A DNA stretch of 64,000 nucleotides from Deltaproteobacteria bacterium. GTDB lineage: Bacteria > Myxococcota_A > UBA9160 > UBA6930. A program made the position numbers and the translations under genes. The stretch is from the NCBI GenBank assembly GCA_016875395.1, contig VGRF01000001.1:1-64000 (forward strand), written 5' to 3'. Positions 10,482 through 18,141 of the stretch are shown piece after piece (position 1 is the first letter of the stretch; every line of letters begins with the position of its first letter). The notes under the pieces are model-generated. The model saw nothing but the letters and a program-made list of their open reading frames with translations. It did no database searches and was not told the DNA's origin.

Positions 10482-11231
10482 TCACGGTCGATCGCTTGCG
10501 CCGAGCTGGCGCAGACGTTCGCCGGCCACCATCGCCATTGCGGCTTGCAGGTTGTAGGAGGGGATGAAGCCGCGCATCGGGATGCGCAGCGCGCCATCGC
10601 AAGCGGCGACCACCTCGCTCGGAATGCCATCGCGCTCACCGCCGACGACCAAGAGCAAGCGCCCGGTCAGGTCTTCCTCCCACGGTGCGTGCGTGCCGAC
10701 GTCTTCGATCGCGAGCACGCGGCGGCCCGCAGCCTTCGCGAGCGCGACGACCTCGAGCGCGGGCAGCCAGTGCACGGGGAAGAAGCGATCCGCGCGCATC
10801 GAGGCGCGCAGCGCCTCGCGCTTGCCTTCGTGCGCGAAGCCCGAGTCGACGAATGCGCACGCGGCGCCCGAGACTTCGGCGAGGCGAATCGCGAAGCCGG
10901 TGTTGCCGGGGTATGCGACGCCGACGAGCAGCCACGCCACACCGCCGCCCGCGAGCGCCTCGGCGGGCCGCGCGTTCGGGTCGGGCCCGATCACGGCCAT
11001 CACCTCGGGTGCGGGCGAGCACTTGCCGAGGCGCCAGAGCGACTGCGCGCTCGTCTCGCGCAGCGCGATGCCCGCGGCGCGCACGCGCTCGAGCACCGCG
11101 CGCGTTTCGGGCAGCTGCGGCGTGGCGGCGTGCAGAACGAGGCGCACGGGCTCGCCCGCATCGAGCGCAGCGGCGAGCTCCGCCGCGCCCGCGACCTGCC
11201 TGCGAGCGGGCTCGCTCACGCGCGGCGCCAC
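10482..11231 (-). CDS. SpoU/TrmH-family RNA 2'-O-methyltransferase
   Basis: 249 residues from GTG 11231. The SPOUT trefoil-knot motifs are all visible: YPGNTGFAIRLAE (motif 1), LLVVGGERDGIP (motif 2) and IPMRGFIPSYNLQAAMAMV (motif 3). The family methylates ribose 2'-OH in tRNA or rRNA with S-adenosylmethionine. The N-terminal 90 residues act as a substrate-binding extension in relatives. Its start overlaps the 3' end of the Trm9-like gene by 16 bp, so the two are probably co-transcribed and may both act on tRNA. The exact target nucleotide cannot be inferred. Confidence 0.88.
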   Translation of the reverse strand: MAPRVSEPARRQVAGAAELAAALDAGEPVRLVLHAATPQLPETRAVLERVRAAGIALRETSAQSLWRLGKCSPAPEVMAVIGPDPNARPAEALAGGGVAWLLVGVAYPGNTGFAIRLAEVSGAACAFVDSGFAHEGKREALRASMRADRFFPVHWLPALEVVALAKAAGRRVLAIEDVGTHAPWEEDLTGRLLLVVGGERDGIPSEVVAACDGALRIPMRGFIPSYNLQAAMAMVAGERLRQLGASDRP

Positions 11232-11929
11232 GACAAGTACGCGTTCGAGATGCCGCCGGCGCCGTCGGAATCGAAGCGCTCGGCGAGCGGCAGGCCCGCT
11301 GCGTGCTCCAGCCGCGCGAGCTCGGCGTCGTCAGCGAAGTGCGAGAAGCGGAACACGGAGTCGTCCGTGTCGAAGCGCAACAGGCGATCGCCCGGCTCGA
11401 GCTCGCGCTCGTCGATCCCCGCGCGCGACCACGGGACGCGCCGTGCGGCGCTCTCGTCGCCGGTCGTGCGCCAGAACGCGACGCTGAGCGTGCCGCCCGG
11501 CGCGAGCCGCTCCGCGAGCGCGCGCACGAGCGCCGCGCGCGCCGCCTCGCCGGGCACGTGGTGGATCACGCCGAACATGCCGATCAGGTCGAACGGGCCG
11601 CGCGGAATGTCGTGAGGCGCCTCGATCACGTCCATGCGCGCGAACTGCGCGCCCTCGATCAGGTCGTTGCGAGTGCGCGCGAGCGCGATCAGCTCCGCGC
11701 TCGCGTCGACGCCCTGATAACTCGCTCGCGCGCCGCGCTCGCGCAGCAGCTGCGCGAAGCGCCCGTGCCCACAGCCCACGTCGAGGATCGCGCGCGGCGC
11801 CGGCACCGCGTCGAGCACGCGCCGCATCCCCGGCCACGGGCGGTCGCGCTTCGACGCGAAGAGTCGGGCGTGGCGCCGGTAGAATTCCTCGTTGATGCGG
11901 GCCAGAGCCCGCGCGGTCTCGGGAGTCAT
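11216..11929 (-). CDS. Trm9/ALKBH8-like SAM-dependent methyltransferase (candidate tRNA U34 methylase)
   Basis: 237 residues from ATG 11929. Class I methyltransferase with SAM loop ILDVGCGHGRF (50-58). Several features are those I know from eukaryotic Trm9, which esterifies the carboxymethyl group left by Elp3: an N-terminal YRRHARLFASKRDRPWP (17-33) matching Trm9's Y-x-x-x-A-x-x-F-x-x-x-R-x-x-PWP; FDLIGMFGVIHH (113-124) with the VxHH signature; a W followed later by VPW (165-167); and near the end FRFSHFADDAEL like Trm9's y-R-f-y-H-l-F-x-x-x-E-L. It lies head to head with elp3, the two ATGs overlapping in CATG (11927-11930), and overlaps the SpoU gene downstream. Plain small-molecule methylation remains possible. 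No Trm112-like partner is visible in the window. Confidence 0.72.
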   Translation of the reverse strand: MTPETARALARINEEFYRRHARLFASKRDRPWPGMRRVLDAVPAPRAILDVGCGHGRFAQLLRERGARASYQGVDASAELIALARTRNDLIEGAQFARMDVIEAPHDIPRGPFDLIGMFGVIHHVPGEAARAALVRALAERLAPGGTLSVAFWRTTGDESAARRVPWSRAGIDERELEPGDRLLRFDTDDSVFRFSHFADDAELARLEHAAGLPLAERFDSDGAGGISNAYLSWRRA

Positions 11930-13667
11930 GAGCGCGCGCAGCATACAAGCCACATCGGACGAGAAGCTGCGCGCGATCATCGCGGAGGCGATCGCCGCCG
12001 AGTCGCTCGGCGCGCGCGCGCTCGATCGCATCCTGCGCCGCCACCCCAAGGACGGGCGCGGCTTCTACACGAAGCGCGAGGTGCTCGCGGCGTTTCGCGC
12101 GAGCGCGAGCGAGTGGCCGCTCGCGGAGAGCGCGTTCGCGGAGAAGCTGCGCACGACGCCGACGCGGACGCTCTCCGGCGTCGCGCCGGTCGCGGTGCTG
12201 ACGAAGCCGTTTCCGTGCCCCGGCCGCTGCGTGTTCTGCCCGAGCGACGTGCGCATGCCCAAGAGCTACCTCGCGAACGAGCCCGGCTGTCAGCGCGCGC
12301 AGGCGAATCGCTTCGATCCCTATCTGCAAGCCTGGAATCGCCTCGCCGCGTTTCGCGCGATGGGCCACTCCACGGCCAAGGTCGAGCTGATCGTGCTCGG
12401 CGGAACGTGGTCGTTCTATCCCGAGAGTTATCAGGTGTGGTTCGCGACGCGCCTGTTCGACGCGCTGAACGATTTCGGCGCAGGCGTCGACCGCCGCGAC
12501 GAGATCGCAGCGTTCGCGCCGGACTTCGCGAGCTTGGCGCTCGGCTCGCGCGGCTACGACGCGACGGTTGCCGCGCATCTGCGCGCAGGCGACGGCGAGC
12601 TCGTGCCCGCGAGCGAGCGCGGCGAATGGTCCGCGCTCGCGGCCGCGCAGCGTGCGAACGAGCGCGCCGGCGCGCGCTGCGTCGGCCTCGCGCTCGAGAC
12701 GCGGCCCGACCACGTCACGCGCGACGAAGTGCTGCGCCTACGCCGCCTCGGTGCGACGAAGGTGCAGCTCGGCATCCAGTCGCTCGACGACGCCGTGCTC
12801 GCGGCGAACCAGCGCGGCCACGACATCGCCGCGACGCGCGAGGCGATCGCGCTGCTGCGCGGCGCCGGCTTCAAGGTCCACGCGCACTGGATGGCGAATC
12901 TGTTGGGTGCAACTCCGGCGAGCGACCGCGCCGACTTCGCGCGCCTCTTCGACGACCCCGCGATCCGCCCCGACGAGCTGAAGCTCTACCCGTGCAGCCT
13001 CGTCGAGACCGCCGAGCTCGTTCACCACCACGCCCGCGGCGAGTGGCGCGCATACACGCGCGAAGAGCTGCTGCCGCTCGTCGCCGACTGCCTCGCCGCG
13101 ATTCCGCGCTGGTGCCGCGCGACACGCGTCATTCGCGACATTCCCTCGCAAGACATCGTGACCGGGAGCAAGGAGACGAACCTGCGCGAAGCCGCCGAGG
13201 CGCTGCTGCGCGAGCGCGGCACGGCGCTGCAAGAGATCCGCGCGCGCGAAGTCCGCAACACCGCCCGCGACGACGCGCCGCTCACGCTGCGCGAGACCCG
13301 CTACGCGACGAGCATCGGCGACGAGATCTTCCTCGAGCTCACAACGACCGACGACCGCATCGCCGCCTTCGCGCGCGTGTCACACCCAAGGGCTGGTTCG
13401 ACGCAACACGCGCCGATCGCCGAGCTGCACGGAGCCGCGCTGCTCCGCGAGGTTCACGTCTACGGCGCCGCCGCCGGCTTCAACGAGCGAGCCGCGAACA
13501 AAGCGCAGCACGCCGGCCTCGGCGCAAAACTCGTGAAGCGCGCGGCGGCAATCGCTCGCGACACGGGCTTCGCGCGCCTCTCGGTCATCTCCGCCGTGGG
13601 CACGCGCGACTGGTACCGCCGCCAACACTTCACAGACGGCGACCTCTACCAACACCTCGCGCTCTGA
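11928..13667 (+). CDS. elp3: Elp3 family radical SAM/GNAT tRNA uridine-34 carboxymethyl synthase
   Basis: 579 residues from ATG 11928; an upstream ATG at 11892 is less likely because it would lie inside the divergent methyltransferase. Radical SAM domain with the iron-sulfur cysteines C97, C101, C104 (CPGRCVFC), then the Elp3-specific NEPGCQRAQANRFDPYLQAWNRL and KVELIVLGGTW, and a C-terminal GNAT acetyl-CoA domain containing HAGLGAKLVKRA and SVISAVGTRDWYRR. Elp3 adds a carboxymethyl group to wobble U34 of tRNA using acetyl-CoA. In bacteria Elp3 is sporadic. A strong hairpin follows the stop at 13709-13745. The divergent Trm9-like gene suggests the product is further methylated to mcm5U. Confidence 0.93.
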   Translation: MSARSIQATSDEKLRAIIAEAIAAESLGARALDRILRRHPKDGRGFYTKREVLAAFRASASEWPLAESAFAEKLRTTPTRTLSGVAPVAVLTKPFPCPGRCVFCPSDVRMPKSYLANEPGCQRAQANRFDPYLQAWNRLAAFRAMGHSTAKVELIVLGGTWSFYPESYQVWFATRLFDALNDFGAGVDRRDEIAAFAPDFASLALGSRGYDATVAAHLRAGDGELVPASERGEWSALAAAQRANERAGARCVGLALETRPDHVTRDEVLRLRRLGATKVQLGIQSLDDAVLAANQRGHDIAATREAIALLRGAGFKVHAHWMANLLGATPASDRADFARLFDDPAIRPDELKLYPCSLVETAELVHHHARGEWRAYTREELLPLVADCLAAIPRWCRATRVIRDIPSQDIVTGSKETNLREAAEALLRERGTALQEIRAREVRNTARDDAPLTLRETRYATSIGDEIFLELTTTDDRIAAFARVSHPRAGSTQHAPIAELHGAALLREVHVYGAAAGFNERAANKAQHAGLGAKLVKRAAAIARDTGFARLSVISAVGTRDWYRRQHFTDGDLYQHLAL

Positions 13668-13920: not shown

Positions 13921-16506
13921 CTAGCTCGGTCGCCGAAACTCCAGCGCCTCCCCGGAGAGCCGCGCATCCGCCACGATCTTCGCGCCCTCCGCGAACTCGC
14001 CCTCGAGGATCTTCATCGCGAGCGGGTCCTGCACCAGCCGCTGGATCACGCGCTTCAGCGGCCGCGCGCCGTAGTGCGGGTCGTATCCCTTCTCGGCGAG
14101 CAGCTGCTTCGCCTCCTCCGTCAGCTCCAGCTCGATGCGCCGGTCCGCGAGCATCTTGCGCACGCGCGCGAGCTGAATCTCGACGATGCGGTCGAGATGC
14201 TTGCGCTCGAGCTGGTGATAGATCACGACGTCGTCGACGCGGTTCAGGAACTCCGGCTTGAAGTGCGCGCGCAGCGCCTCCATCACGCGCGTCTCGATCT
14301 CCTCGTGCCTGCTCGCCTCCACGATGAACTGGCTGCCGATGTTCGAGGTCATGATCAGGACGACGTTCTTGAAGTCGACCGTGCGCCCTTGGCCATCCGT
14401 CAGGCGGCCGTCGTCGAGGATCTGCAGCAGCACGTTGAACACGTCGGGGTGCGCCTTCTCGATCTCGTCGAAGAGCACGACGCTGTACGGGCGCCGGCGC
14501 ACGGCTTCCGTCAGGTAGCCGCCCTCGTCGTAGCCGACGTAGCCGGGAGGCGCGCCGATCAAGCGGGACACGGAGTGCTTCTCCATGAACTCGCTCATGT
14601 CGATGCGCACCATCGCCTGCTCGTCGTCGAACAGGAACTCGGCGAGCGCGCGCGCCGTCTCGGTCTTTCCCACGCCCGTGGGCCCGAGGAAGATGAACGA
14701 GCCGATCGGGCGGTTGGGATCCTGCAGCCCCGCCCGCGCCCGGCGCACGGCATTGGCCACCAGCGAAAGCGGCTCGTCCTGGCCGACCACGCGGCGGCGC
14801 AGGTTGTCCTCCATGCGCAGCAGCTTCTCGTGCTCACCTTCGACCATCTTCGCGACCGGCACGCCGGTCCACTTCGAGACGATCTCGGCGATCTCCTCGG
14901 GCGTCACTTCCTCGGACAGCACCGAGCCTTGCTTCTGCAGCTCGGCGAGCTTCGCCTGCTCGGCATCGAGCTGCTTCTCGAGCTCCCGTAACAACCCGTA
15001 CTGGATCTCCGCCGCGCGCTCGAGGTTGCTCGCGCGCCTCGCGCGCTCCAGCTCGGCGGTGAGCGCCTCGCGCTTCTCCTTGATCTCGCGCACGCGCGCG
15101 ATCGCGCTCTTCTCGTTGTCCCAGCGCGCCTTCAGCGCCGCGCTCTCGCCCTGCAGCTCGGCGATCTCGCCGCCGATCTTCGAGAGCCGTTCGCGGCTCG
15201 CGGCGTCGCTCTCCTTCTTCAGCGCCTCGCGCTCGATCTCGAGCTGCGTGCGCTTGCGCTCGATCTGATCAAGCTCCTCGGGCATCGAGTCGATCTGCAC
15301 GCGCACGCGGCTCGCGGCCTCGTCCACGAGATCGATCGCCTTGTCGGGCAGGAAGCGCTCGGTGATGTACCGATTCGAGAGCGTCGCCGCGGCGACCAGC
15401 GCGGCGTCCGCGATGCGCACGCCGTGGTGCGTCTCGTAGCGATCCTTGAGCCCGCGCAGAATCGAGATCGTGTCCTCGACGCTCGGCTCTTCGACGAGCA
15501 CGGGCTGGAAGCGGCGCTCGAGCGCGGCGTCCTTCTCGAGCTTCTTGCGGTACTCGTCGAGCGTCGTCGCGCCGACGCAGCGCAGCTCGCCGCGTGCGAG
15601 CGCGGGCTTCAGCATGTTCGCGGCGTCGGCGGCGCCTTCTGCCGCGCCCGCGCCGACGATCGTGTGCAGCTCGTCGATGAACAGCACGATCTCGCCCTGC
15701 GACTCCGCGACTTCGCGCAGCACGGCCTTCAGGCGATCCTCGAACTCGCCGCGGTACTTCGCGCCGGCGATCAGCGCGCCGATGTCGAGCGAGATGACGC
15801 GCTTGTTCATCAGCGACTCGGGCACGTCGCCCGCGACGATCCGGCGCGCCAGGCCCTCGACGATCGCGGTCTTGCCCACGCCGGGCTCGCCGATCAGCAC
15901 GGGGTTGTTCTTCGTGCGGCGCGAGAGCACCTGCACCACGCGGCGGATCTCCTCGTCGCGGCCCACCACCGGATCGAGCTTTCCGGTGCGCGCGGCCTCG
16001 GTGAGATCGCGCCCGAACTTCGCGAGCGCCTGATACTTCGACTCGGGATCTTGGTCGGTGATGCGCGCGTTGCCGCGCACGCTCTCGAGCGCTTGCTCGA
16101 TCGCCGCGCGCGTCGCGCCGGCTTCGCGCAGCGCCTTCGCGGTGTCGTCGCTCTTGTCGTCCGCGAGCGCCAATAACAAGTGCTCGGTCGAGACGTACTC
16201 GTCCTTGCGCTTGTCGGCCTCCTTGAAGGCGCCGTCGAGCGCGCGCTGGAGCGCGGGCGAGATGGTCGGCTGCGAGCCGCCCGTGACCTTCGGCAGCGCC
16301 GCGAGGCGCTTCTCCGCGTCGCTCTGCACGCGCTCCACCGCGACGCCGATCTTCTGCAGGATCGGCACCGTGCTGCCTTCGGGCTGCGCGACGAGTGCGC
16401 GCAGCAGATGCGCAGGCGTGATCTGCGAGTGACCGCGCGAGGTGGCGAGGCTCTGCGCCTCACTCAGGGCTTCTTGACTCTTGAGCGTGAGCTTTTCGAA
16501 ACGCAT
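13921..16506 (-). CDS. clpB: ATP-dependent disaggregase ClpB
   Basis: 861 residues, full length for ClpB. Order: Clp N-domain ([18 protein letters not shown] start), AAA+ domain 1 with Walker [16 protein letters not shown] and [13 protein letters not shown], the long coiled-coil middle domain that sets ClpB apart from ClpA/ClpC, AAA+ domain 2 with [19 protein letters not shown] and the arginine-finger region, and a C-terminal small domain. It rescues aggregated proteins with DnaK. It is first in transcription terms after the divergent-free gap at 16507-16605 and lies next to two HtrA protease genes on the same strand. I looked for a CIRCE element or a clear heat-shock promoter upstream and found none. 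Confidence 0.97.
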
Positions 16507-16605: not shown

Positions 16606-18141
16606 TCAGCGCGTGTCGCGCTTCAGCGTGATGAAGACTTCCTGCCGGCCGCGGCGCACCAGCAGCAGCGCGCCCTTCGGGTTCTTCAGCACGGACGTGC
16701 GGAACGCGGCGCTCGTCGCAACCGGCTCCTGGTTCACTTCGAGGATGAGATCGCGCGCGCGCAGCGTCGCCTTCTCGGCGGGGCTGCCCGGACGCACGCG
16801 AGTCACGACGACGCCCTTCGTGCCCGCTTCGAACCCGAGCTCCTGCGCGAGCTGTGGCGTCACGGTCTGCACCGAGAGCCCGTACTCGCCGCTCGGCTCG
16901 GCTTCGTCTCCGCCAGGCCCGAGCTCAGCTTCGTCGTCGAGCGCCAGCGCGCTCACCACGATGTCCGCGCTCATGCGCTTGCCCTTGCGCACGAACGTCA
17001 CCTTCGAGCGCTGGCCCGGCGGCGTCGCGGCGACGAGCTGCGGCAGCTCGTCCATGTCTCTGATCTTCTTGCCGTTGAACTCGACGATCACGTCGCCGTG
17101 GCGGATACCCGCGCGCTCTGCCGGGCTGCCTTCCTCGACGTCGTTCACGAGCGCTCCGCTCGCGTCCGGCAGGCCCAACAGCTCGGCCGCATCCGCGTCG
17201 ACGGGCTGGATCGTCACGCCCAGCTTGCCGCGCGAGACGCGGCCCTTGTTGCGCAGCTGCGGCAGCACCTGCTTGGCCATGTTCACCGGGATCGCGAAGC
17301 CGATGCCGATGTTGCGGTCGCTGGCGATCATCGTGTTGATGCCGACCACCTCGCCCGCGAGGTTCAAGAGCGGCCCGCCGGAGTTGCCGGGATTGATCGC
17401 GGCGTCGGTCTGGATGAAGTCCGAGTAGCGCGGGCCTTCCTGCGCGCGCGTGCGGCGGTGCTTCGCGCTCACGATGCCGGCCGTGACGGTGTTCTCGAGG
17501 CCGAGCGGATTGCCGATCGCGACGACCCAGTCGCCGATGCGCGTCTTGTCCGAGTCGCCGAGGGGCAGCGAGGTGAGCGACTTCTTCGCCTCGACCTTGA
17601 GCAGCGCCACATCCGTCGCCGGGTCACGGCCGATCACTTTCGCCGGGAGGGTCGTGCCGTCGAGGAACACCACGTCGATCTTGTCGAAGTTGTCGACGAC
17701 GTGGTTGTTGGTGACGACGAAGCCGTCGGCGGAGATCACGAAGCCGCTGCCTTCTCCCGCGCGCGGCACGCCGCCGCCGAAGGGGAAGCCGAACATCTCC
17801 TCGATCGGGTTGCGCGGCCCGCGTCGCTCGTCGGCGGTGATCGTGCGCTCGGCCTGAATGCTCACGACGGCGGGCGCCACGCGCTCCGTCAGGTCGGCGA
17901 ACGTGATCGGCGCGCCGCGAGGCGCAGCGGTGGGCGCCGGGGGAGGGCTGCCGCCCTCGCGCCAGAACGGCGCCGACGCCTGTTTGGGCTTGGCAGCGGC
18001 CTCGTTCTCGAGCAGGCCCGCGGCCTGGGCCACGTTCCCGCGCAGGTCGATCCGCACGTCGACGATGCCGGTCGCAACCAGCACGAACGCCGCCACCGGC
18101 AGCGAGATCACCATCGGAAGCAGCCAACGCTTCGCCTGCAT
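16606..18141 (-). CDS. degP: DegP/HtrA-type periplasmic serine protease with two PDZ domains
   Basis: 511 residues. N-terminal hydrophobic helix (about 6-26) and an Ala/Pro-rich linker, then trypsin-like domain with catalytic His in VVTNNHVVDN, Asp in DPATDVALLK and Ser in INPGNSGGPLLN, then two PDZ domains (KLGVTIQPVDADAAELLGL and the C-terminal GSPAEKATLRARDLILEVN). This is the classic Do-family layout for periplasmic protein quality control. It lies between clpB and a second HtrA gene, all leftward, with gaps of about 100 bp each, so the three may be expressed independently or as a stress block. Confidence 0.94.
   Translation of the reverse strand: MQAKRWLLPMVISLPVAAFVLVATGIVDVRIDLRGNVAQAAGLLENEAAAKPKQASAPFWREGGSPPPAPTAAPRGAPITFADLTERVAPAVVSIQAERTITADERRGPRNPIEEMFGFPFGGGVPRAGEGSGFVISADGFVVTNNHVVDNFDKIDVVFLDGTTLPAKVIGRDPATDVALLKVEAKKSLTSLPLGDSDKTRIGDWVVAIGNPLGLENTVTAGIVSAKHRRTRAQEGPRYSDFIQTDAAINPGNSGGPLLNLAGEVVGINTMIASDRNIGIGFAIPVNMAKQVLPQLRNKGRVSRGKLGVTIQPVDADAAELLGLPDASGALVNDVEEGSPAERAGIRHGDVIVEFNGKKIRDMDELPQLVAATPPGQRSKVTFVRKGKRMSADIVVSALALDDEAELGPGGDEAEPSGEYGLSVQTVTPQLAQELGFEAGTKGVVVTRVRPGSPAEKATLRARDLILEVNQEPVATSAAFRTSVLKNPKGALLLVRRGRQEVFITLKRDTR

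Follow-up and report, generated by a model that had tools for sequence, protein, structure and literature searches.

In the 64,000-nucleotide stretch of DNA analysed here (the window), we identified a bacterial elp3 gene that is paired with a gene encoding a relative of Trm9. The two encoded proteins probably form a two-enzyme wobble-uridine pathway that yields mcm5U34 and acts as a stand-in for MnmE and MnmG (MnmEG), a chemistry that we infer without biochemical or nucleoside data. Computation places both proteins in their families and finds their active-site residues conserved, their genes strictly linked, and MnmE and MnmG absent.

In the predicted pathway, Elp3 would use acetyl-CoA and radical SAM chemistry to add a carboxymethyl group to C5 of U34 (cm5U34), and the Trm9-like enzyme would use SAM to methylate the cm5U34 carboxylate, giving mcm5U34. 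The tRNA substrates and the methyl-ester product are both inferred, as would be any later thiolation. The pathway may run without need for other Elongator subunits, and probably without Trm112. An archaeal Elp3 is able to produce cm5U in vitro on its own (PMC13315578; PMC5372719).

Organization of the locus

The elp3 gene (11928..13667, plus strand, 579 amino acids) encodes a radical SAM/KAT enzyme, the predicted maker of cm5U34, with matches to TIGR01211 and to solved Elp3 chains. Divergent from it and head to head lies the gene for the Trm9-like SAM methyltransferase (11216..11929, minus strand, 237 amino acids plus stop), predicted to esterify cm5U34 to mcm5U34. The start codons of the two genes share the tetranucleotide CATG at 11927-11930. 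This shared CATG, like both open reading frames and their coordinates, had been correctly described in the first-pass annotation, which also proposed a 16-bp overlap between the end of the methyltransferase gene and a SpoU-family RNA 2'-O-methyltransferase gene (10482..11231, minus strand; PF00588, 1.5e-21); the overlap holds if the GTG start of the SpoU gene is right.

The target of the SpoU protein is unknown, and its similarity to RlmB and TrmL is weak, far under the NCBIfam cutoffs. All 10 family-level loci have the gene next to the pair, as does a minority of the remaining loci. It appears to be an optional neighbour, and we rejected the idea that it is an essential third member of the system, since most of the more distant loci do without it.

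A possible -10 hexamer of the methyltransferase gene, TATGCT (11940..11945, minus strand), is located 10 nt ahead of the ATG, within the elp3 coding sequence. If it is real, the methyltransferase transcript would be leaderless. Of 32 Myxococcota-type loci, 15 show the pattern TANNNT at position -16; the count at other positions is 0-5. As these 32 loci are related, the assignment of this hexamer from sequence is merely suggestive.

Elp3

The Elp3 encoded in the window is a full-length member of TIGR01211 (4.5e-128; 428 bits versus a cutoff of 350), and among solved structures it comes closest to the Elp3 of Dehalococcoides (2.2e-89) and of Methanocaldococcus. The CX3CX2C iron-sulfur motif that had been reported for it is present as C97-x3-C101-x2-C104. 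The GNAT domain reported with it is under the Pfam cutoff when taken alone, but the alignment of the protein with solved Elp3 chains extends through their KAT domain. Residues K77, K193 and E386 of Dehalococcoides mccartyi (Dmc) Elp3 have kept equivalents in K151, K316 and E508, and the equivalent of Dmc Y441 is W562 in the Elp3 family of the host, while most of the other pair loci have Y there; the roles of these four Dmc residues (acetyl-CoA pocket) have been described (PMC6367351). We predict that the host Elp3 makes cm5U on tRNA, an activity that remains inferred.

Linkage of elp3 and the methyltransferase gene

In the set of 61 genomes from the host order, 42 carry the methyltransferase, and 40 of these also carry Elp3 (some as contig-end fragments). 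The two genomes with the methyltransferase but without Elp3 have partial methyltransferase matches and less complete assemblies. Elp3 without the methyltransferase was found in none of the 61 order genomes. At the loci of the order, elp3 lies upstream and on the opposite strand in 29 of 30 cases, the exception being cut by a contig end; at two loci, the genes are separated by about 1.2 kb.

A cross-phylum scan with the methyltransferase alone as query covered 84,980 species genomes, from which 80 loci were kept. Judged by record title, these belong to Deltaproteobacteria/Myxococcota, Chloroflexi, Patescibacteria (including Dojkabacteria and WWE3), Acidobacteria, Eisenbacteria, Fermentibacteria and Ignavibacteriales. 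An elp3 match was detected in 53 of the 80 locus stretches; it is upstream and divergent in 52, and about 1 kb away or less in 50 of these. Because elp3 is upstream on the opposite strand in these proportions both in the order and across phyla, the pairing is not due to chance. Elp3 is present in 48 of 50 scan genomes across phyla, a choice that took in nearly all of the non-adjacent cases.

The same pattern was found in a phylum set of 189 genomes, of which 33 have both genes (counting Elp3 fragments in two genomes) and none has one gene alone (Fisher p 1e-37, assuming independent genomes, which they are not). Within the phylum, the pair occurs in the host order, in one further family of its class, and in three more families elsewhere. 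Protein distances of Elp3 and the methyltransferase at 46 shared loci are strongly correlated (Mantel r = 0.86; null maximum of 0.25 in 2000 permutations), and the two trees contain the same three large clades, with phyla mixed in each. Clustering of the flanking ORFs revealed no third gene that is retained beside the pair from phylum to phylum. With matching trees and unconserved flanks, the two genes behave as a single unit of inheritance, which is probably transferable. The adjacency that the first-pass annotation had described at a single locus thus extends, across several phyla, to linkage in presence, position and phylogeny.

The lack of a third gene also bears on the final product. It is possible, if unlikely, that the methyl ester is made but that mcm5U is not the sole final product, being processed wholly or in part to, for example, ncm5U or cnm5U, or by thiolation to mcm5s2U. 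In yeast, ncm5U and mcm5s2U are downstream of the same step (PMC5372719; PMC6367351), and Elp3-bearing archaea contain cnm5U and mchm5U-type nucleosides (PMC7668247); against such further processing, nothing beyond elp3 and the methyltransferase gene travels with the pair across phyla. We retain mcm5U34 as the predicted product.

The methyltransferase is a relative of Trm9

The top PDB sequence match of the host methyltransferase is Yarrowia Trm9 (5cm2_Z, 9.2e-11), which covers residues 25-222; nearly all other PDB matches are limited to the SAM-binding core. A profile built from 27 relatives again ranked Trm9 first among PDB sequences (2.9e-14). The first-pass annotation had recognised features of eukaryotic Trm9 and ALKBH8 in this protein, and by both sequence and profile its best solved match is indeed Trm9 rather than a ubiquinone/quinone or mycolic-acid enzyme. 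In the reverse search with Trm9, the methyltransferase gene was the only place in the host genome below 0.001 (1.1e-10). In some other genomes, the best Trm9 match is a different methyltransferase.

Divergent homologues, mostly from Patescibacteria, are paired likewise with elp3 or come from genomes that possess it. This Patescibacterial clade is unambiguously the closest to Trm9, which comes first in the single-sequence PDB search (2.5e-16, the next match at 1.6e-9) and is the top PDB match of the clade profile (9.8e-27). Comparison of structures supported the kinship with Trm9 only in part. For a Patescibacterial member, Trm9 is at rank 1 of the fold search (2.4e-17 versus 4.2e-13; TM-score of 0.85 on the target). 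For the host protein (AlphaFold model, pLDDT 94), the fold search is non-specific, with 5cm2_Z at rank 18 and structural neighbours that are mostly small-molecule enzymes.

Closer inspection of the host methyltransferase located all of the motifs F24xxxR28xxPWP, DVGCGHG, VIHH and FRFSHFADDAEL that had been read as Trm9-like. A further motif, W...VPW, exists inasmuch as VPW occupies residues 164-166, but it is not the homologue of Trm9 QDVMVPW, which aligns with D181...F186 of the host protein (GDHLLPW in relatives). The yeast Trm9 mutants R29A, H115A, R241A, Y243A and N271A suffer losses in both tRNA affinity and activity (PMC5372719). Four of these five key residues are kept, R29, H115, R241 and N271 corresponding to host R28, H123, R194 and N229. 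R29 and H115 were placed by alignment to Yarrowia Trm9; the placement of R241, Y243 and N271 also draws on motif order and the yeast numbering, and is in part our assumption. In 96 homologues, R28 (99%), H123 (92%), W153 (100%), D181 (98%), R194 (98%) and N229 (84%), together with Y195 and H197, are kept at 84-100% (at 195, F was scored separately from Y). At the position of Trm9 Y243, the host clade has S, A or C, and most members of the Patescibacterial clade have Y (RYYH). The two-stranded lid region is conserved.

These residues and the fold comparisons also bear on the substrate. The methyltransferase might be linked to Elp3 and yet have another target, such as a different tRNA position, Elp3 itself or some other protein: class I methyltransferase folds are promiscuous, the structural neighbours of the host protein are for the most part small-molecule enzymes, and the Y243 position is unconserved in its clade. 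We consider this improbable given that the Trm9-specific R28, H123, R194 and N229 and the lid region are kept, and that the Patescibacterial clade is so clearly nearest to Trm9. Methylation of the cm5U34 carboxyl group is the activity that we infer.

Searched against Pfam and NCBIfam, the methyltransferase gave broad methyltransferase matches only, none above an equivalog cutoff; its placement therefore rests on the PDB profiles, the reciprocal search and the linkage. A UbiG/quinone methyltransferase identity was rejected (37.3 bits versus an NCBIfam equivalog cutoff of 102.95). While such generic matches would suit a metabolic methyltransferase that happens to lie next to elp3, coincidental adjacency is in practice refuted by the cross-phylum linkage (from a scan in which elp3 played no part), the matching trees, the all-or-none co-occurrence and the flanks that change while the pair stays. 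A CmoM-like enzyme that methylates cmo5U34, unrelated to cm5U, is very unlikely: CmoM does methylate a carboxylate at U34 and is among the weak matches, but at 33.6 bits versus an NCBIfam equivalog cutoff of 366, and the methyltransferase co-occurs with Elp3, which produces cm5U.

Absence of MnmE and MnmG, and the distribution of Trm112

Neither MnmG nor MnmE, the standard U34-modifying enzymes of bacteria, was found above cutoff in any of the 61 order genomes, and control genomes gave the expected outcome in these searches. The order genomes do contain MnmG-like matches of 30-65 bits, which we did not count as MnmG, as they are short stretches far under the 525-bit cutoff; they are probably relatives such as TrmFO, an identity that is unconfirmed. 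In the phylum set, MnmG is present in 0 of 33 pair genomes versus 99 of 156 others (p = 5e-13 under independence). Across phyla, it was detected in one of 50 pair-type genomes, an Ignavibacteriales genome that has both the pair and MnmG.

Eukaryotic Trm9 requires Trm112. No Trm112 had been visible in the window, and this is borne out beyond it, for the whole host genome assembly, in which Trm112 (PF03966) has no match. PF03966 was identified in 20 of the 42 order genomes with the methyltransferase and in 13 of the 19 without it, and in the absence of a positive co-occurrence we rejected Trm112 as a hidden partner. The simplest reading is therefore an enzyme that does not need Trm112; we infer that the methyltransferase is probably independent of it.

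Implications

A modified U34 is regarded as almost universal, and many bacterial genomes are nevertheless without MnmE and MnmG. For a large group of these bacteria, the pair would be a concrete answer to how U34 is modified, and it leads to the sharp prediction that mcm5U occurs in bacteria. If free of Trm112, the methyltransferase would be a simple single-chain model of ALKBH8/Trm9 chemistry. Co-inheritance of the two genes is also relevant to the origin of the eukaryotic pathway. We lean towards the view that mcm5U34 is present in several phyla (Myxococcota-type Deltaproteobacteria, Chloroflexi, Patescibacteria, Acidobacteria and others) by means of a mobile, Trm112-independent two-gene Elp3-Trm9 module that replaces MnmEG.

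Bacterial Elp3 has been called rare and limited to one clade or to Dehalococcoides, with no direct evidence of cm5U derivatives in bacteria (PMC7663514; PMC6367351). Contrary to this description, our results show that bacterial Elp3 is widespread. In the open-access literature, we found neither a bacterial Trm9 nor bacterial mcm5U described (subscription papers and preprints were outside our scope). As far as that literature shows, a bacterial variant of the known Elp3-Trm9 pathway is new, and the original prediction that the pair makes mcm5U stands and is strengthened.

Comparison with known systems

MnmE-MnmG likewise acts on C5 of U34 in the same tRNA class; its chemistry and enzymes are unrelated to those of the pair, and it is absent wherever the pair is found, bar the one genome. 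Dehalococcoides mccartyi Elp3, the closest solved chain to the host Elp3, is also a stand-alone bacterial Elp3, and no partner methyltransferase has been reported for it in the literature examined. It has a CxCxxC zinc motif, whereas the host Elp3 and its clade do not.

With the eukaryotic Elongator (Elp1-6) and Trm9-Trm112 or ALKBH8-TRMT112, the bacterial system shares the Fe-S and acetyl-CoA residues of Elp3, and its class I methyltransferase has the FxxxR-x-PWP start, the HH motif, the W, the lid RYxH and the C-terminal N of Trm9/ALKBH8. It differs in that Elp3 is the only Elongator subunit at the locus and that the two genes are head to head. Unlike in Trm9-Trm112 and ALKBH8-TRMT112, Trm112 is missing from the host genome and shows no correlation elsewhere. 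The bacterial methyltransferase also lacks the RRM or AlkB domain, and its equivalent of Y243 is unconserved in the host clade.

The archaeal Elp3-Trm9 systems (Haloferax HVO_2888 with a Trm9 homologue, and Sulfolobus solfataricus) likewise have Elp3 without the other Elongator subunits. In contrast to the bacterial pair, archaea usually have Trm112, or Trm112 fused to the methyltransferase (PMC5372719). The genes for Elp3 and the Trm9 homologue are clustered in S. solfataricus, as was pointed out for Sulfolobus in 2008 in a study that listed mcm5U as typical of eukaryotes (PMC2584109).

Distribution of the Elp3 pair and MnmG

Neither MnmG, one of the usual bacterial U34 enzymes, nor the Elp3 pair (head-to-head elp3 and Trm9-like methyltransferase genes, predicted to form an mcm5U34 pathway) was found in about 57 of the 189 genomes of the phylum set. 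These genomes include several nearly complete assemblies of the host order, the families concerned being f6, f8, f10 and f11. One Ignavibacteriales genome (G109, locus L103 of the cross-phylum methyltransferase scan) encodes a full MnmG together with the Elp3 pair; the two systems may truly coexist there, or the assembly may be mixed. In the same scan, the Elp3 and methyltransferase of locus L108, from a 0.7 Mb genome (G110) whose record is titled Lysobacteraceae, group with Patescibacteria; the Lysobacteraceae label is probably wrong.

Gene neighborhood and sequence features

The SpoU-family 2'-O-methyltransferase gene (10482-11231, minus strand) is co-directional with the Trm9-like methyltransferase gene in the host family, and among the weak relatives of the window protein is TrmL, an enzyme whose target is nucleotide 34. 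On the far side of elp3, we read from the sequence genes for a ClpB-like protein (13921-16506, minus strand) and a Deg/HtrA-like protein (16606-18141, minus strand), and several order-level loci likewise have relatives of both close to the pair.

About half of the Myxococcota-type loci have a TANNNT hexamer exactly 10 nt ahead of the methyltransferase ATG (11940-11945 on the minus strand in the window), which suggests a leaderless methyltransferase transcript that starts inside elp3.

Comparison of the pair loci separated two types of bacterial Elp3 adjoining a Trm9-like methyltransferase, one with and one without the CxCxxC zinc motif (the corresponding region of the window Elp3 is residues 430-445). 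Compared in sequence with the Dehalococcoides Elp3, its closest solved chain, the window Elp3 is longer by about 50 residues inside the radical SAM domain (residues 184-236, encoded at 12477-12635 on the plus strand).
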